64,000 bases of DNA, taken from positions 558,001-622,000 of the forward strand of contig NZ_CP033367.1 in assembly GCF_013170845.1 (NCBI RefSeq), in the 5' to 3' direction. The position numbers and the translations under genes were made by a program. The notes under the pieces were generated by a model. That model was not told the DNA's origin. It made no database searches and saw nothing but the letters and a program-made list of their open reading frames with translations. The stretch comes from Mesorhizobium loti R88b (GTDB lineage Bacteria; Pseudomonadota; Alphaproteobacteria; Rhizobiales; Rhizobiaceae). The first letter of the stretch is position 1; the number at the start of each line of letters is the position of its first letter. Below are positions 6,182-63,888 of this stretch, piece by piece.

Positions 6182-7273
6182 GTGTTGACCACCACAGACG
6201 ACCTTCGGGTCACCGAAATCAGAGCATTGAGCGCGCCGGAAGAGGTGATGCGCGAGATACCGCGCACGCTGACGGCGACGCGCACCGTCGCCACCGCGCG
6301 CAACGCGATCCATTCCATCCTTACGGGGGCCGACGATCGACTGCTTGTCATCGTTGGCCCTTGTTCCATCCACGATCCGGTCGCGGCCGTTGACTATGCC
6401 AGCCGTCTGGCGGCGCTGCGCGAGACCCTGTCCGACCGGCTCGAGATCGTCATGCGCGTCTATTTCGAGAAGCCACGGACCACGGTCGGCTGGAAAGGCC
6501 TGATCAACGATCCGGACCTCGACGGCAGCTTCAACATCGAGAAAGGGTTGCGCATGGCGCGCAACGTCTTGTCGGCCGTCAACAATCTCGGCCTGCCGGC
6601 AGCGACCGAATTCCTCGACATGACCATTCCGCAATACATCGCCGACCTCGTCGCCTGGGGCGCCATCGGCGCGCGCACCACCGAGAGCCAGATCCATCGC
6701 GAGCTGGCCTCGGGCCTGTCCTGCCCGGTCGGCTTCAAGAACGGCACCGACGGCAATTTGCGGATCGCCGCCGAGGCGGTGAAATCCGCCGCCCAGCCGC
6801 ACCATTTCATGGCGGTGACCAAGGGCGGACGCAGCGCCATCGCGACCACCACCGGCAATGAAGACTGCCACGTCATCCTGCGCGGCGGCGTTCAGCCGAA
6901 CTATGACGCGACAAGTGTCGAGGCCGCGAGCGCCGAACTCGCCCGCATCGGTATCGCGCCCCGGCTGATGATCGATGTCAGCCATGCCAACTCGGCCAAG
7001 AAGCCGGAGAACCAGCCGAAGGTCGCCGCCGACGTGGCGGGCCAGGTCGCTGCCGGCGACGAGCGCATCATCGGCCTTATGATCGAGAGCAATCTCGTCG
7101 CCGGCCGCCAGGACGTCGTGCCAGGCAAGCCGCTCGTCTACGGCCAGAGCATCACCGATGGCTGCATCGACTGGGCGACCACCGAGACCGTGCTGCACGG
7201 CCTTGCCGGTGCCGTCGAATGGCGCCGTTCGGCCCGCCGCGCCATGCTGGAAAGCCGGCAGGGCGCCGCCTGA
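6182..7273 (+). CDS. aroG: 3-Deoxy-7-phosphoheptulonate (DAHP) synthase, class I
   Basis: A 363-aa cytoplasmic enzyme that condenses phosphoenolpyruvate and erythrose 4-phosphate, the entry step of the shikimate pathway. Family motifs include 'VIVGPCSIHDP' near residue 58, 'RVYFEKPRTTVGWKG' near 98, 'GARTTESQIHRELASGLSCPVGFKNGTDG' near 166 and 'DVSHANS' near 268. Length matches AroF/AroG/AroH of E. coli. The GTG at 6182 is chosen because CAGGAG lies about 9 bases upstream; an upstream TTG at 6140 falls inside the terminator and is unlikely. Regulation by an aromatic-codon attenuator is strongly suggested. Which amino acid inhibits the enzyme cannot be read here. Confidence 0.93.
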   Translation: MLTTTDDLRVTEIRALSAPEEVMREIPRTLTATRTVATARNAIHSILTGADDRLLVIVGPCSIHDPVAAVDYASRLAALRETLSDRLEIVMRVYFEKPRTTVGWKGLINDPDLDGSFNIEKGLRMARNVLSAVNNLGLPAATEFLDMTIPQYIADLVAWGAIGARTTESQIHRELASGLSCPVGFKNGTDGNLRIAAEAVKSAAQPHHFMAVTKGGRSAIATTTGNEDCHVILRGGVQPNYDATSVEAASAELARIGIAPRLMIDVSHANSAKKPENQPKVAADVAGQVAAGDERIIGLMIESNLVAGRQDVVPGKPLVYGQSITDGCIDWATTETVLHGLAGAVEWRRSARRAMLESRQGAA

Positions 7274-7321: not shown

Positions 7322-7945
7322 CAGTCCCTCCCAAGCGGTGAACACCGACACCGCAAACAGCAGCAGCCCGGCCGCCCGGCCCGCAAGAATGGTTGCCTGT
7401 GGATTGGCGATCAGAAGCTTGCGGCTGCGTCCGGCCGTGATCGCGAGCCCCCCATAGATCGCGGCCTGGGTCAGGACCGTCATCAGGCCCATGACCGTCG
7501 CCTGAATCCAGATCGGGCCGTAGTCCGGCTTGAGGAACTGCGGATAGACAGCAAGCACGAACAAGTACGCCTTCGGATTGATCAGGCAGGTGACAAAGCC
7601 CTGGCGAAACGCCTTCCATGCGGTGCGGCTGCCGGCAGGCCCGTCCTGGCCGACGGTGATGGAGCTGCGCATCAGCGTGATGCCGATGAAGGCCATGTAA
7701 GCGGCGCCGGCAAGCAGCAGCGGCGTGAACAAGATCGGCACGAAATGCATCAGCAGGCCGACGCCGATGGCACCGTTCAGCGTGTGCACCATGCCTCCGA
7801 CCATGATGCCACCCGTTGCGGCCAGACCCCTGTCGCGCCCGCCGGTCAGTGCATTGGCCAGCACGAACAGCATGTCCATGCCCGGGACGACGATGATGCC
7901 GAACAGAAGGATAAAGAAAAGCCAGAGATTTTCCGCATAACCCAT
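7310..7945 (-). CDS. LysE/RhtB-family translocator (putative amino-acid exporter)
   Basis: A 211-aa inner-membrane protein with about six hydrophobic segments. It has 'VVPGMDMLFVLANALTGGR' near residue 20 and 'LINPKAYLFVLAVYPQF' near 120, the two conserved stretches of the LysE/RhtB exporter family. Such proteins export amino acids or related compounds; the substrate is not predictable. The ATG at 7945 is chosen because the residues from a longer upstream frame are not membrane-like and would run into the divergent promoter. It is divergent from the WYL regulator at 8075, which may control it. Confidence 0.82.
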   Translation of the reverse strand: MGYAENLWLFFILLFGIIVVPGMDMLFVLANALTGGRDRGLAATGGIMVGGMVHTLNGAIGVGLLMHFVPILFTPLLLAGAAYMAFIGITLMRSSITVGQDGPAGSRTAWKAFRQGFVTCLINPKAYLFVLAVYPQFLKPDYGPIWIQATVMGLMTVLTQAAIYGGLAITAGRSRKLLIANPQATILAGRAAGLLLFAVSVFTAWEGLRAA

Positions 7946-53063: not shown

Positions 53064-54170
53064 ATGAGCGAAACCATCGAAACCGCGAAGCGCCGCAAGG
53101 CGCCGGCGAAGCCAAAGGGGCGGGTCACCATGACCGACATCGCCAGGGCCGCCGGCTGTTCGCAGGCGACCGTATCCTTCGTGCTCAACAATTCGCCAGG
53201 CATCCGGCTGTCGCAGCAGACCCGCAATCGGGTGGTCGAGGCGGCAAGGGCGCTGGGCTACAGCGCGCCTGCCTTCTCGGCGCTGCAGAAGCCCGTCGCT
53301 GCCTTCGAAGGTCCGGCCTTCGATGGACTTGACGGGGTGATCGGCTTTGCCGTCGACCAGCTCGCCACCAGCCCGGAGGCGGTGGTGGCCATCGAAGGCG
53401 CGCGCCAGGCCTCTTGGAATGCCGGCAACGTGCTGCTGGTGGCGCAGACCATGGGCGACGCCGTGATGGAGCCGCGCGCCATACAGGCGCTGACCAGGCG
53501 GGGTATTTCGGCGCTGATCTACATGACCATCTTCACCCGCGAGATCACGGCGCCCGACTTCCTCTACAGCCTCGACATTCCGGTGATCCTGCTCAACTGC
53601 TACACGGCGGACTACGCCTTCCCGGCCGTGGTGCCTTCAGAGATCGCCGGCGGCCAGAGCTCGACCCGCCATCTGATCAGCCACGGCCATCGCCGCATCG
53701 CCACCATCACCGGCGAGCCGTGGATGCAAGCGGCACAGGACCGGCTGAAGGGTTATCGGCGCGCGCTCGCCACCGCAGACATCCCGTTCGATGGAGAGTT
53801 GGTGGTCGAGGGTGACTGGTCGGCCAGCGCCGGCTATGCCGCAACCGTGAAGCTGTTGGCGCTGAAAGACCGCCCGACCGCCATCTTCTGCCAGAACGAT
53901 CGCACCGCGATCGGCTGCTACGAAGCGCTGAAGGAGGCCGGCCTGCACATCCCGCAGGACATTTCCGTGGTCGGCTACGACGACGAGGAAATCGCCCGGC
54001 ATTTGTTTCCGCCGCTGACCACCTCGATCCTGCCGCATATGGCGATGGGCCAATGGGCGATCGAACAACTCGAGGCGCCCTCGCCGCCCGGACGGGGGCG
54101 TTATCCCATCACCAAGCTCGAATGCCCGCTGGTTGAACGGGAGAGCGTGAGGGCGGTGAAAGCCGGCTGA
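53064..54170 (+). CDS. LacI-family transcriptional regulator
   Basis: A 368-aa regulator with an unusual basic N-terminal extension. The helix-turn-helix 'MTDIARAAGCSQATVSFVLNNSPGIRLSQQTRNRV' (key residues Ala-Thr-Val-Ser) lies at about residues 23-57. The sensor domain contains 'HRRIATITGEPWMQAAQDRLKGYRRAL' near 210 and 'AIFCQNDRTAIGCYEALKEAGL' near 273. It is divergent from the CUT2 operon at 48.7-52.5 kb and probably represses it. Its 3' end is copied in decayed form at 56434-56683. Confidence 0.87.
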   Translation: MSETIETAKRRKAPAKPKGRVTMTDIARAAGCSQATVSFVLNNSPGIRLSQQTRNRVVEAARALGYSAPAFSALQKPVAAFEGPAFDGLDGVIGFAVDQLATSPEAVVAIEGARQASWNAGNVLLVAQTMGDAVMEPRAIQALTRRGISALIYMTIFTREITAPDFLYSLDIPVILLNCYTADYAFPAVVPSEIAGGQSSTRHLISHGHRRIATITGEPWMQAAQDRLKGYRRALATADIPFDGELVVEGDWSASAGYAATVKLLALKDRPTAIFCQNDRTAIGCYEALKEAGLHIPQDISVVGYDDEEIARHLFPPLTTSILPHMAMGQWAIEQLEAPSPPGRGRYPITKLECPLVERESVRAVKAG

Positions 54171-56433: not shown

Positions 56434-56683
56434 ACGGCCATCTTCTGCCAGAACGACCGCACCGCGATCGGCTGCTACGAGGCGCTTATGGAAGCCGGAC
56501 TGCACATTCCGCAAGACATTCCGTGGTCGGCTACGACGACGAGGAGATCGCCCGGCACCTCTTCCCGCCGCTGATCACCTCGATCCTGCCGCTTATGGCG
56601 ATGGGCTAATGGGCGATCGGGCAGTTCGAGGCGCCGGCGGCGCCGGGACGGGGTTATCCGATCACCAAGCTGGAGTGCCCGCT
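56434..56683 (+). pseudogene. Decayed duplicate of the 3' end of the LacI gene at 53064
   Basis: The bases match the segment of the LacI gene from about 53880 to 54130 almost throughout ('GCCATCTTCTGCCAGAACGA', 'GGCTACGACGACGAGGA', 'TATGGCGATGGGC'). One T is lost in the ATTTCCGTGG segment (frameshift), and a CAA codon has become TAA after 'ATGGCGATGGGC'. There is no helix-turn-helix part. This is the remnant of a second LacI-type gene or of a duplication, left next to the defence island. The 56684-56783 stretch that follows shows nothing else. Confidence 0.8.
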
Positions 56684-56783: not shown

Positions 56784-57500
56784 TCATGCCGCCTCGGTCT
56801 TGTACTGGTCAAACTCCGGGGGTAGAAGCTCCAGAATTCTTTCCGTGGTCAGGTCTGTCATGTCCCATGTGACATCGAGTTGCTTGCGCACAGCGGCCAG
56901 TCTCCTCGGGATACCGGGCCCCTTTGTGAGCCCAGCACCGCGTTTGACGGTCCCATTCTCGTCACTAAAGTAGAGCACCCTTGCGACGCGCTGGAAATTG
57001 CTGCTGAACATGTCCTGCTGGCTGGTCAGCTGCTCTCTGATGTCAGGACCAGTTCTCGGTTTTCCGCAGATGAGGTGGTCCGCATCGTTGCCGAAAGCCG
57101 CGTAGAGAAGTGTAGGCATGCGAACCAAGTGACGCTGCGCCTTCTGCCAGTGATTAGGAGCGCTTGGATACCAGCGGTGGTATTCGAGGATTTTGCGAGC
57201 GCCATTCGTTATGGGAAATAGATTATCGAGAAGAACGAATGTCAGCCAGGCCCAGAGGCCGATATTGCCGACGAAATTCTGAGGCGAGTTTTTTTCAAAG
57301 CTCGCACAGATAGCGACCGCCATTTCCTTGGCCGTCGTAAACTCACCACCCGTGAAAGCGGTAGTCCCTTCGACAGGCGTCGCGTAGCGGCGATTGGACA
57401 GATCCAAAGCTTCCTCGGAAAGCTGGCGGGTCATCACCCGCTCGAACACCTGCAGTCCCTCGGGCGTGAGCTGGAACAGCGATTGATAAGTTGTGCTCAT
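56784..57500 (-). CDS. Unknown protein, last gene of the GHKL-ATPase operon
   Basis: A 238-aa soluble protein with no recognised family. It begins 'MSTTYQSLFQLTPEGLQVFERVM' and is mostly helical in appearance. 'FVGNIGLWAWLTFVLLDNLFPI' near residue 76 is hydrophobic but too interrupted to be a clear membrane helix. 'KAQRHLVRMPTLLYAAFGNDADHLICGKP' and 'DMFSSNFQRVARVLYFSDENGTVKRGAG' follow. It overlaps the upstream gene by four bases, so it is translated with the ATPase operon. No nuclease motif of the PD-(D/E)XK or HNH type is evident by eye. Confidence 0.7.
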   Translation of the reverse strand: MSTTYQSLFQLTPEGLQVFERVMTRQLSEEALDLSNRRYATPVEGTTAFTGGEFTTAKEMAVAICASFEKNSPQNFVGNIGLWAWLTFVLLDNLFPITNGARKILEYHRWYPSAPNHWQKAQRHLVRMPTLLYAAFGNDADHLICGKPRTGPDIREQLTSQQDMFSSNFQRVARVLYFSDENGTVKRGAGLTKGPGIPRRLAAVRKQLDVTWDMTDLTTERILELLPPEFDQYKTEAA

Positions 57501-58246
57501 GATTTGTCCTCAGCGGGTGCTAGGGCAGCGCGCGCACCTGCCACGAAATTGTGCCGCGCCGCAAAGGCGTCCAGCAGTTCATCGATCCACTTTGTTTTCT
57601 CCTCATATGAAGCGCCGAAGGGCGGCTTTGTGTTCGGCAACAGTTCCATTACCCAAGTCATCCAGTCATCTTCCCAGCCGCCTTCGGGAGCTTCTCTGGA
57701 TTCTAAGATCGCGCGCATGATCTCGGTGACGACGGCTGGCACAACACACGCACCGAAGACCGGATCAGTCCGGGCCCACAAGCCAGCATTAGGAATACTT
57801 TCATCGATGTACACGATCGGGGGCTCCTGATCGCGAATATCAAGCGACCACAGGCGTGGCGCGATTGGAGCCGCCTGAAACAGGAGAATGCCGTCAGGCT
57901 CTCCCCCTGATGTCAGGGTCCATTCACGGGTACTTCCCAGAAGCATGCCGTCGCGATCCTGTGCCCGATTGACGATGCGTACCTGACAGGATGGCGCCCT
58001 GAATACCTCACTATCGATATCGGCAACGGTTGCAGGCTTCGCAATCGTACCGAACGAAAGTACGCGGACCAGCTTGTTCTCCGTGAGCTTGACCCTGATC
58101 TCTGACGTCGCGGGAAACCCGCGCAAAGCAGCAGGATCAGATATGGCAAGGGTGCCGACGGGCCTGCCACCGAGTTCGCTGAAGCGGAAGTCGAAGGCAG
58201 CCTGCGCAAGCTGACGGCGACCGGTCAGGCGGATTGTCTTACGCAT
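57497..58246 (-). CDS. Unknown protein, third gene of the GHKL-ATPase operon
   Basis: A 249-aa protein with no recognised family. The N-terminal half looks beta-rich ('KTIRLTGRRQLAQAAFDFRFSELGGRPVGTLAI', 'LVRVLSFGTIAKPATVADI'). The middle holds 'PRLWSLDIRDQEPPIVYIDESIPN' and the C-terminus is helical ('WEDDWMTWVMELLP', 'KTKWIDELLDAFAARHNFV'). Its start overlaps the ATPase stop by eight bases. Such coupling suggests it forms a complex with the GHKL protein. Conserved acidic residues could be catalytic, but no active-site pattern can be named. Confidence 0.7.
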   Translation of the reverse strand: MRKTIRLTGRRQLAQAAFDFRFSELGGRPVGTLAISDPAALRGFPATSEIRVKLTENKLVRVLSFGTIAKPATVADIDSEVFRAPSCQVRIVNRAQDRDGMLLGSTREWTLTSGGEPDGILLFQAAPIAPRLWSLDIRDQEPPIVYIDESIPNAGLWARTDPVFGACVVPAVVTEIMRAILESREAPEGGWEDDWMTWVMELLPNTKPPFGASYEEKTKWIDELLDAFAARHNFVAGARAALAPAEDKS

Positions 58247-60107
58247 CCCGGAACCCTTTCACGTTAGTGATGAGTTCCCGGCGCACATCAAAGCCACGGA
58301 TCTCGATCGCAAAATCGGGGCCGCAGTCGCGGACGGTCAAAACGTTCTTCTTGATCGCCAATGCACCGCTCGTCCCGTATCGTACGATAGGCATGCCGTT
58401 CAGTGCGAAGTCGTATTCACTCCATTTTGGCACGCGCGAGCCGTCCGCGTAGACGATCTCAGCGCGCATGTTGGCGGGCCAGCTTTTCTGATCAGGGTTG
58501 GCGCGCACGCGGAACCCGTCGGGTAGCTCATCAACGAGAAAGATGTTGGGCTGTTTTGGAAGTGATGGCGGTGGTGGCGGTGGCGGCACGCCGGGTTGCT
58601 TGTTACCGGTGCCACCCGGCTTGTTTGTCGTGTCCGGCGTGTGCTTCGGAATTGAAAAGTAGCCGCTGAACACGCTGGCGTCAGGCTGGGTTGCATCAGG
58701 CAGGACCGTCGCACGAAGCTCATCCATGAGGCGGCGGACGAAGCGTTTGACGATATAGCCATCAAGAAAACCATTCTCGACAAGCTTGGCACGCACTTCC
58801 TTGTTCTCGATCAGGCCGAGATGTGCCTTGCCCTCGCAGAAGTTCAGATAGGAGACCAGTTCTCCTTCGTTCGATTGAATGATCAGGTCGACCTCCGCCG
58901 CATGGCGCGCTTCGACTTCAGGCAGACTCATGCCTTCGCGAAAGAAGAGGTCAATCGACTTGCGCCCTTTTGGGGTGTGCGCGACCGCGGCACAAAGGCG
59001 TGAGACCGATTTCACACCGCGCCGGGTCAGCGGGACTTCGATGCCGATACAGAGGCGATCTCCCGCGACAAAGTCCTTACGCAAGCGCTCATGCTCCTCG
59101 GGAGAGAGAGCTTCTTCAACCCGTGCGGAGGGGCGGGTGATACTGATTACAAACGTTGGTTTATCCATTGAATGGCGGATCAGTTCGAGCTGGCGCGCTG
59201 GATCTTCGCGCATTGGGCCAACCGGAAATTCAGCAGTGACGCGCCGGGCCTGATCATCAATTGTCGAGTGGTTTATGATCTCATTGTCAACCTCGACGAC
59301 GAGGCTGCACGAGATGATTGCCGGAGCGAAATGCTCGATTGCGGCGGCAATTATGGCATCGGGTGCGAGTGTTTGATGCGGAAACGGAATAACCAGCGAA
59401 AGTCCACTGGTGCCTGCGCCTGCATAGTCGGCGACAGAAAAGGCCTCTACAAGTTCTTGGACAAATTCCGGGTCATCATAAAGCTTGTAGATGCTGCCTG
59501 ACGCGGCCTTGGCGAGGTAGGCATAGCTGCTTTTGAAATCATTGGCCATCATCCCCGGTTTAAGGAGACTCATGCCGCAAGCAGCCACCGATCCGTCCCC
59601 AGCGCGTCTTGTGATACCTATGACCGTACTGATACCCGACGCAATCAGGAAGGTGATGCGTCCAATGCCACGCCCGCCTCGCCCCGCACCGCTCTTGTTC
59701 GAGATGCCGAAATTCATCCAGTAGTTCCAGAAGTCACTGATGCGGCTACCGAGATCTCCATTCAGACCGGACGTATTGCTATCTTCCACAACGAGCCATG
59801 ACATCCGGCCTGTTTTCCATTCGTCTGGCCAAGCAAGTCCGCACAGCTGTTTGTGGCGAATAAGATCGCCAAGGAAATCAGCGCGCGAGCCTACGGCTCC
59901 TTCATAAAAGCCGAAGCGCACGTGCACCGGTTGGGTCTTGTCTAGCCTCGCATCCAAGCTGTTCTGGATTGCCTCACGCACAAATGTCTGGACGTGCGGA
60001 AATTTCTCCGAGTCGAAAATCTCGGTATCGAGCCCATAATTGACGGCCGTGGCGCCCATAGTAGGCCACTGCCATTCGCGCAGGGATGCAGCGGACGAGT
60101 TTACCAT
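58239..60107 (-). CDS. GHKL-type ATPase (MutL/MORC/Hsp90-like), putative defence protein
   Basis: A 622-aa protein. The GHKL ATPase core lies in the first 160 residues: motif I 'FVREAIQNSLDAR' (Glu45, Asn49, Asp52), motif II 'VVEDSNTSGLNG' near 107-118 and the glycine-rich lid 'GRGGRGIGRITF' near 142-153. A transducer-like region follows, to about 330. The C-terminal part contains a proline-rich linker (about 520-540) and a beta-rich end. ATP-driven dimer closure is the known mechanism of this superfamily. Comparative genomics has described MutL/MORC-like ATPases beside restriction-modification genes, as here. It overlaps the genes on both sides. Confidence 0.82.
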   Translation of the reverse strand: MVNSSAASLREWQWPTMGATAVNYGLDTEIFDSEKFPHVQTFVREAIQNSLDARLDKTQPVHVRFGFYEGAVGSRADFLGDLIRHKQLCGLAWPDEWKTGRMSWLVVEDSNTSGLNGDLGSRISDFWNYWMNFGISNKSGAGRGGRGIGRITFLIASGISTVIGITRRAGDGSVAACGMSLLKPGMMANDFKSSYAYLAKAASGSIYKLYDDPEFVQELVEAFSVADYAGAGTSGLSLVIPFPHQTLAPDAIIAAAIEHFAPAIISCSLVVEVDNEIINHSTIDDQARRVTAEFPVGPMREDPARQLELIRHSMDKPTFVISITRPSARVEEALSPEEHERLRKDFVAGDRLCIGIEVPLTRRGVKSVSRLCAAVAHTPKGRKSIDLFFREGMSLPEVEARHAAEVDLIIQSNEGELVSYLNFCEGKAHLGLIENKEVRAKLVENGFLDGYIVKRFVRRLMDELRATVLPDATQPDASVFSGYFSIPKHTPDTTNKPGGTGNKQPGVPPPPPPPSLPKQPNIFLVDELPDGFRVRANPDQKSWPANMRAEIVYADGSRVPKWSEYDFALNGMPIVRYGTSGALAIKKNVLTVRDCGPDFAIEIRGFDVRRELITNVKGFRDA

Positions 60108-60328
60108 CAGAGCTTGAACTCCCCGCTTGCGCCCTCGCCGTCTTTCGTGAAACGACCTTTCGCACCGTCGAGTGCCTTCTGAAGAGCGCCGAAAATCTTG
60201 CGCACATCAGCGTCGGTGAATTCGTAGGCCGCCTTGTTCGACAGATTACCTATCAGTTGCAGGTCTTTAAGGGCCTTGCCGACGCGGGCTTCGGCAAGGT
60301 CCACAAACTTTTGTCTTTTGTCGCGCAT
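60107..60328 (-). CDS. Small protein, first gene of the GHKL-ATPase operon
   Basis: A 73-aa protein, probably helical ('KFVDLAEARVGKALKDLQLIGNLSNKAAYEFTDADVRKIFGALQKALD'-type spacing; many Lys, Ala and Leu). No family is recognised. Its stop and the ATPase start share one base (TGATG), so translation is coupled. AAAGGAGC precedes the ATG. It could be a regulator or a small subunit of the ATPase complex. Small leading genes with helical repeats occur in several defence operons, but that is only an analogy. Confidence 0.68.
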   Translation of the reverse strand: MRDKRQKFVDLAEARVGKALKDLQLIGNLSNKAAYEFTDADVRKIFGALQKALDGAKGRFTKDGEGASGEFKL

Positions 60329-60378: not shown

Positions 60379-60550
60379 CGTTCCTTTGCAATATTCTTCG
60401 TACATTTTTAAAATGTAGTCGACGAGAGCGCCTTTCGAGCAGATTCCGATGCCAGCAAAACTGCGGCCGCCCTAGGACTGAGCGCCGCTCCATGTCAGAA
60501 GTTTATATGGAAACATGTCTTTGAATCTCCTGTGGATTTAATCCCCGCCT

Positions 60551-60591
60551 TTGTATTTGTTCTCTTTATGTTCCTATGACATCATGTCATA
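60551..60591 (+). promoter_or_regulatory. Promoter and putative operator of the methyltransferase operon
   Basis: TTGTAT (60551-60556), 18 bases, TATGAC (60575-60580). The perfect palindrome TATGACAT-C-ATGTCATA (60575-60591) covers the -10. Its GACA...TGTC core is like the operator of M.SsoII (AGGACAAATTGTCCT), a methyltransferase that also represses its own gene through an N-terminal helix-turn-helix. The rest of the 60329-60626 gap is AT-rich and otherwise featureless. Confidence 0.62.

Positions 60592-63811: not shown

Positions 63812-63888
<77 letters not shown>

Follow-up and report, generated by a model that had tools for sequence, protein, structure and literature searches.

A four-gene operon built around a putative paraMORC2-type ATPase beside the cytosine-C5 restriction-modification genes of Mesorhizobium loti R88b

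What does a four-gene operon built around a GHKL ATPase do beside a complete restriction-modification (R-M) system? The question is raised by a 64,000-nucleotide stretch of Mesorhizobium loti R88b (contig NZ_CP033367.1, positions 558,001 to 622,000; hereafter the window, in whose numbering coordinates are given). The operon occupies 56784-60328 on the minus strand and encodes, in order, a small basic protein of 73 amino acids (aa; P0001, 60107-60328), a 622-aa GHKL ATPase (P0002, 58239-60107), a 249-aa protein (P0003, 57497-58246) and a 238-aa protein (P0004, 56784-57500), with overlaps of 1, 8 and 4 bases. The initial annotation had claimed these four overlapping minus-strand genes and the reading frames agree, although the span that it gave, 56784-60107, holds three of them and stops short of the first. 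On the plus strand, across an intergenic region of 298 bp and divergent from the operon, as the annotation had also stated, lie a cytosine-C5 methyltransferase (C5-MTase) with an N-terminal helix-turn-helix (HTH; P0005, 60627-61871), a Vsr endonuclease with a TTG start (P0006, 61864-62319) and an EcoRII-C/Ecl18kI-type restriction endonuclease (REase; P0007, 62316-63719). The answer that we favour, with confidence only a little above even, is that the operon is the ATPase arm of the C5-methylation R-M system, an ATP-gated clamp complex that would assist restriction.

The operon genes are real: homologues exist and the gene order recurs, the four-gene arrangement being kept at many loci. Searches, each counting the query's own entry, retrieved 59 proteins for P0003, the others 38-87% identical to it; 325 for P0002, 120 of them listed, from a search that scored only the 7995 candidates sharing most words; and 419 for P0004, again with 120 listed. 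None of P0001-P0004 matched Pfam or NCBIfam at the curated cut-off, PHROGs returned a single chance-level match, and the sole PADLOC match was PDC-M33A on P0002 (5.6e-19, residues 38-291). The earlier statement that the 73-, 249- and 238-aa proteins belong to no recognised family holds for these four collections, at the curated level for the first three. Phage or viral carriage was considered and set aside: the ATPase found no match in phages, one weak match in plasmids and none that was confirmed in viral contigs.

P0002 carries the GHKL ATP-binding motifs, with E45, N49 and D52 in motif I, D109 in motif II and a Gly-rich lid. In an alignment of 29 complete ATPases from the fetched loci and the window, one duplicate locus having been removed, R44, E45, Q48, D52, D109, G114, G144, G147, G149, R390, E425 and H429 are invariant (29/29), and N49 is kept in 28/29. 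The Glu/Asn/Asp of motif I and the lid noted in the initial annotation are present and conserved, and its assignment of a GHKL (MutL/MORC-like) ATPase linked to R-M genes is borne out by this alignment and by the C5-MTase found at 32/36 loci. Among GHKL ATPases, those of MutL, topoisomerases and MORC proteins act on DNA as ATP-gated dimers. According to Iyer 2008 (PMC2292703), MORC proper is defined by a GhXhhpXXRhl motif in the S5 domain, and an ExxxH that is strongly conserved towards the C-terminal side of that domain sets paraMORC2 apart. Because E425-x3-H429 is aligned and invariant in 29/29 proteins and fits the latter definition, P0002 is classed, by its motifs, as a paraMORC2-type GHKL ATPase with a putative S5 fold. 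Its sequence profile matched no chain in the PDB, and no Pfam family was found in it at E up to 1, including DUF4263/PD-(D/E)xK nucleases.

Linkage to R-M genes was surveyed at loci gathered through proteins similar to those of the operon, or to their counterparts in the PADLOC system PDC-M33, and not through R-M genes. The MTase, Vsr and REase profiles were built up inside the fetched loci, starting from P0005, P0006 and P0007, and searched against flanks of up to 10 kb per side (at the window's own locus, 14 kb on one of them), which are unequal and in some cases cut. A C5-MTase lies near the ATPase at 32/36 loci, Vsr at 26/36 and an EcoRII-like REase at 14/36; these loci are 35 plus L120, added later, with L083 dropped and L018-L025 left out as short views of counted loci, and they include L013 and L015 from one metagenome-assembled genome (MAG), the close relatives L006 and L007, and L014, L016 and L017, where the ATPase is split or truncated. 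In a survey of 297 genomes of the family, the ATPase occurs in 8, the window's own included and 3 of them weak partial matches, with a C5-MTase in the flank in 8/8 and Vsr in 6/8 (flanks for G054 and G114 taken from L011 and L010, respectively, on identical tblastn figures). The 7.2-Mb genome has one match to PF00145 (C5-MTase) and one to PF03852 (Vsr), both beside the operon. This sole C5-MTase and Vsr, together with the count of 32/36, argues for a module coupled to the R-M system and against a defence that works by itself. The initial annotation had left both roles in play, an accessory layer to the R-M system or an independent defence, and had asked whether the genes travel with R-M genes; the count favours the accessory role, with exceptions at four loci including L120.

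The neighbours in the window are a type II R-M set with an EcoRII-like nuclease, comprising the C5-MTase, an EcoRII-C REase and Vsr. Pfam recognises all three (P0005, DNA_methylase, 1.9e-83; P0006, Vsr, 1.4e-27; P0007, EcoRII-C, 1e-23), and the P0007 profile matches EcoRII (4.3e-16) and Ecl18kI (1.2e-13) in the PDB. Elsewhere the MTases that align with P0005 range from some that are 56-78% identical to others at about 24-33%, a divergence from which the module appears not to be bound to a single MTase specificity.

The 73-aa protein extends the picture beyond this operon, and its wider spread is one of two points that the initial annotation did not touch. An alignment of 23 family members (A5) contains basic proteins whose sequence pattern suggests a helix-rich fold. 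The A5 profile matches 22/385 genomes of the class and 9/398 genomes drawn from the phylum, the window's own in both, and the phylum-survey matches all fall within the same class. Once weak matches (E > 1e-20) were dropped and the own genome excluded, 24 strong matches remained (18 from the class survey and 6 more from the phylum survey), and a GHKL gene lies in the operon in 22/24, a count in which L094 and L095 are the same operon in two assemblies and the GHKL gene looks broken in L090 and L096. The ATPase gene is immediately next in 19 and second in 3, namely G155/L034, with Vsr between, and L094 and L095, with a 220-aa frame between and the GHKL gene assigned by motif reading; the remaining 2 have none (L089, where the next gene reads like DUF262, and L097). 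Eight weak class-survey rows stand outside these counts, and the four that were fetched (L098-L101, long relatives) show no adjoining GHKL profile match. On plasmids, 13 records carry a 73-aa match; in the 10 inspected, the other 3 looking like near-copies by their match figures, a GHKL gene is next in 7/10, the exceptions being L047, L048 (a locus cut by an insertion sequence) and L051.

The ATPases that follow 73-aa genes are of the paraMORC2 type, of type GHKL2 (with Pfam HATPase matches), of type GHKL3 (about 825-850 aa) or of type GHKL4 (800 aa), the last two placed in GHKL by motif reading alone, with no Pfam match. A 73-aa partner common to several GHKL ATPase types is a new part within the literature searched. 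The protein was rejected as an absolute marker of GHKL genes, given the exceptions L047, L048, L050, L051, L089 and L097 and the weak L098-L101. Several individual loci deserve mention. Plasmids of Dinoroseobacter (L042) and Agrobacterium (L046) carry an operon of a 73-aa gene, a GHKL2 ATPase, an ATP-binding protein and a UvrD-type helicase, with one additional gene after GHKL2 in L042, and PADLOC models gave no match to the two GHKL2 proteins that were scanned. A reverse-transcriptase gene (RVT_1) is divergent from a 73-aa/ATPase operon at L037:9280-10941. Three Synechococcus phages (S-CRES1-3; L050:6001-6252) have a stand-alone 73-aa-like gene at 33-37% identity, a copy that possibly interferes with the host protein.

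The second point is an operator-like palindrome. Upstream of the 73-aa gene, at 60401-60417, stands the 17-bp perfect palindrome TACATTTTTAAAATGTA, which contains ACATT-N5-AATGT; the strict form, ACATTTNNNAAATGT, occurs once in the whole 7.2-Mb genome, at this locus. The motif was sought in 46 regions of 150 bp before the approximate start of the 73-aa gene (profile E < 1e-20), with L083 (a copy of L012), L095 (the L094 operon) and L006 and L007 (degenerate 73-aa genes) dropped and L120 and L121, found later, absent. With at most one mismatch it is present at 17/46 loci, against a mean of 0.64 in 300 dinucleotide shuffles (sd 0.74, maximum 4); the exact form is present at 7/46, against 0.02 in the shuffles, and any other half-site spacing between 0 and 10 is found at 0 to 3 loci. 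By operon type it occurs in 15/24 paraMORC2, 1/5 GHKL2 and 1/9 GHKL3 operons, and in 0/8 paraMORC2 operons that have no recognised 73-aa gene. Among loci of the operon's own type a hand tally finds it at 12/16 with an intact 73-aa gene versus 0/5 with none or a degenerate one, a contrast that partly follows phylogeny. The Fisher values for the motif, 0.006 and 0.003, are indicative only, as relatives are non-independent. In the Bradyrhizobiaceae-type MAGs L006 and L007, the 73-aa gene upstream of the ATPase looks degenerate and the motif was not found. Any palindrome at all precedes 3/5 GHKL2-type 73-aa genes, against 0.6 in shuffles (maximum 2), and 4/9 of GHKL3 type, against 2.3 (maximum 4, 60 shuffles), which is not clearly enriched.

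A local regulator therefore likely acts at ACATT-N5-AATGT. Since the site is also seen next to MTases with only distant similarity to P0005 (L001, L004, L008, L034), the 73-aa protein is the best candidate for its binder. A further 17-bp perfect palindrome, TATGACATCATGTCATA, lies upstream of the MTase at 60575-60591, in the divergent region; one relative only (L084, MTase 78% identical) has a comparable palindrome at almost this distance, and a conserved MTase operator is not claimed.

An AlphaFold2 model of P0003 (alignment A3; predicted local distance difference test, pLDDT, 88.4; predicted template-modelling score, pTM, 0.58) has an N-terminal beta-sandwich at about residues 9-114, with matches like immunoglobulin (Ig) and fibronectin type III (FN3) domains, and a helical C-terminal part. 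P0004 is mostly helical in a confident model (alignment A4; pLDDT 91.6, pTM 0.89) that found no match of note in the PDB or among viral models. Across 19 close and distant relatives of P0004, G15, W83, R123, H124, A140, E156, Q157, Y177, G196, R200, Q207, L226, P227, E229 and F230 are invariant, which suggests a binding or active site. The protein is also a good target for structure determination. The initial annotation had cast these two proteins as effectors, a role that finds no support here, no catalytic family being recognised in them and P0003 being an Ig-like sandwich with helices. Its alternative, that the partners are fragments of a known R-M subunit, is likewise unsupported, with hhalign values of at most 1.2% against the Vsr, MTase and REase alignments and negative family scans.

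How might these parts work together? The gene order, its conservation, the ATPase type, the R-M linkage and the palindrome enrichment are demonstrated above. Upon them, a favoured explanation can be built in which the paraMORC2-type ATPase would form an ATP-gated clamp on DNA, as the biochemistry of GHKL, MutL and MORC proteins suggests, with the Ig-sandwich and helical proteins as its dedicated subunits or adaptors. The clamp would help the neighbouring MTase/Vsr/REase set to restrict invading DNA. The 73-aa protein would be a partner or autoregulator of a kind that other GHKL ATPase operons also have and, seated at the ACATT-N5-AATGT operator before its own gene, may keep the arm poised. We infer the clamp action, the restriction outcome and the identity of the operator binder. 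A bolder version, which we put forward as speculative and unlikely, would make the 73-aa protein the small partner common to prokaryotic defence ATPases of the GHKL (MORC/MutL-like) class as a whole and a new helix-rich, DNA-binding autorepressor on ACATT-N5-AATGT-type operators; a clamp meeting cut or unmethylated DNA would remove it, so that the R-M system brings a second layer of restriction, based on the clamp, into play. What the analysis supplies is a defined parts list that includes the 73-aa partner, a module that accompanies cytosine R-M genes and a promoter element that is unique in the genome; with these, the role of bacterial MORC relatives in R-M becomes testable with few constructs.

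Several observations weigh against the clamp explanation. Four of the 36 loci have no C5-MTase in the flank: L013, which meets a contig end, L055 and L056, which have other R-M genes near, and L120, where 73-aa, M33A, M33B and M33C genes stand in an uncut flank with no MTase, Vsr or REase match. The motif is missing from 29/46 upstream regions, and 73-aa relatives occur without a GHKL neighbour in L047 and L051 (plasmids), L050 (phage), L089 and L097. Family scans place the 73-aa protein in no known family and recognise no DNA-binding fold in it, and family and profile scans found no nuclease or other catalytic family in the ATPase, the 249-aa or the 238-aa protein.

The prominence of Vsr raises a different possibility, that the operon guards the host, the ATPase being a private MutL-like helper of Vsr for T:G mismatches from deaminated 5-methylcytosine, or for damage done by the R-M system. 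Iyer 2008 (PMC2292703) discusses a MutL/MORC parallel with Vsr repair. Vsr is present at 26/36 loci and a C5-MTase at 32/36, with Vsr lying between the 73-aa and ATPase genes in L034 and directly before the ATPase in L014. Vsr commonly accompanies C5 R-M systems that have no such operon, however, and the ATPase is kept without Vsr in the flank at 10/36 loci, of which one runs into a contig end; among loci with 73-aa/GHKL pairs of types GHKL2-4, Vsr is matched at only 2/15. We regard dedicated repair as doubtful.

Two further readings are a shade less probable still. The four genes could be an anti-phage system in their own right, found near R-M genes only because both occupy defence islands, an idea that draws on PADLOC's treatment of the related PDC-M33 as a candidate system of its own (A, B and C models), on the L120 ATPase with its PDC-M33B/C-type genes and no MTase or Vsr match, and on L055 and L053, which adjoin AbiG genes and a Shedu gene, respectively. 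It is unlikely in view of the C5-MTase at 32/36 loci with varying gene order, and of a genome whose sole C5-MTase and sole Vsr stand at this locus. At a similarly low level we place a regulatory pair like CapK/CapS, in which the GHKL protein would be mainly a DNA-damage-sensing kinase or switch that takes the 73-aa repressor off its operator, while the R-M set or the downstream proteins would provide the defence output. CapK-CapS offers a precedent, with palindrome binding and an R-M neighbourhood of capKS loci (PMC13373217), and the present operon likewise brings together a small protein, a palindrome and a GHKL gene, the motif being found at 12/16 loci with an intact 73-aa gene and 0/5 with none or a degenerate one. 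That contrast is partly phylogenetic, however; the ATPase has a C-terminal ExxxH as in paraMORC2; and the STAS and winged helix-turn-helix (wHTH) domains of CapS are not recognised in the 73-aa protein, neither family being among the matches shown (the first 25 of 35 weak families for the 23 members).

The operon and its R-M neighbours lie in an AT-rich island, as the initial annotation had remarked: G+C is 52-58% over 57-64 kb, against 61-66% in 10/11 1-kb steps of 46-57 kb and 57% in the remaining one. Its right edge is a tRNA-Arg(CCG) gene on the minus strand (63812-63888), and most of the listed region matches from the genus start at the 3' end of this gene or within about 10 bases of it, a pattern as expected for, and consistent with, an island inserted at a tRNA gene. 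At the left edge, the end of a LacI-type regulator gene is partly duplicated, 56434-56653 being 88-90% identical to 53877-54097. In another genome of the genus (G155, locus L034, G155:C28), a different paraMORC2-Vsr operon, its 73-aa gene at 6794-7012, adjoins a match to the same tRNA-Arg region at 7573-7744, which suggests that this region is a hot spot.

Among described systems, paraMORC2 shares with the operon the N-terminal GHKL motifs, the C-terminal ExxxH and an R-M neighbourhood with cytosine methylases and Vsr (PMC2292703). For R-M MORCs the same source proposes that DNA is looped between the site of recognition and that of cleavage. The text examined mentions no 73-aa partner, 249/238-aa companions or operator, and describes the group as mainly cyanobacterial and Gram-positive, whereas the present branch is mostly alphaproteobacterial by record titles. 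A different paraMORC-related GHKL group is reported beside C5-MTases and Vsr (PMC8011034); at L032:11862-14030, a 722-aa protein that matches HATPase_c_3 and HATPase_c adjoins the module and is perhaps of the HEF_HK type of that paper. In the paraMORC literature examined, a tested paraMORC3 is present and no tested paraMORC2 was found. The former, VcSduA (Shedu with GHKL), has a paraMORC-type GHKL ATPase, as P0002 does, and its own PD-(D/E)xK DUF4263 nuclease, which Pfam does not find in P0002, and it protects against phage, protection being lost on mutation of the ATPase or nuclease site (PMC12137116); a paraMORC-type ATPase can thus be required for phage restriction. CapK/CapS likewise joins a GHKL protein to a small protein with palindromic sites. 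CapK phosphorylates the repressor CapS, which binds palindromes that precede immune operons, and nearly 20% of capKS loci have an R-M operon on one side and an immune operon on the other (PMC13373217). CapS is a STAS-wHTH repressor, in which it differs from the 73-aa protein.

PDC-M33 is close in gene order and in ATPase; for it, as for DUF6339, a search by name found no paper in the literature covered. In it an ATPase is followed by proteins of about 235-290 and about 240-280 aa, and a 73-aa-type gene often leads, as at L043, L044, L045 and L053; its ATPases are homologous to that of the operon (hhalign 99% over the GHKL part), and its PDC-M33C-matching proteins also match Pfam DUF6339. Planococcus, Priestia, Deinococcus and Arthrobacter plasmids carry a 73-aa-type gene, an ATPase, a PDC-M33B-type gene and a DUF6339 (PDC-M33C) gene in this order, Lactococcus and Ligilactobacillus plasmids the last three, and a haloarchaeal plasmid the ATPase and a DUF6339 gene. 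Across the 35-locus set, profiles recognise the 73-aa gene at 26 loci, a B-slot protein at 29 and a C-slot protein at 30. In contrast to the listed systems, P0003 and P0004 leave the B and C models unmatched. P0003 has no PDC-M33B match at E up to 1 (hhalign 0.2-4%), and P0004 none to the PDC-M33C/DUF6339 models, DUF6339 being absent from the 12 families listed for 67 A4 members. A first hhalign comparison with M33C gave 6.2% for the P0004 family and 3.2% for distant members; enlarged alignments gave 22% (E 9e-4) against at most 1.2% in seven control comparisons, with a default local match of 29 columns and a collinear 238 columns only in forced mode (mact 0.05 or global, 20.9%). This suggests that P0004 may be a remote homologue of PDC-M33C, a possible very distant DUF6339 relative. 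Outright identities, P0003 with PDC-M33B and P0004 with DUF6339, were set aside, as position and length agree but the profile comparisons fail to establish them. By sequence comparison, then, the operon appears to be a distant, unlisted variant of a PDC-M33-kind module. The initial annotation was right to call the module under-described; it is not wholly undescribed, with its ATPase type in PMC2292703 and the related PDC-M33 in PADLOC. The kind of system is known in outline, and what is new, within the literature searched, comprises the small 73-aa partner, the candidate operator and the companion proteins of the alphaproteobacterial branch.

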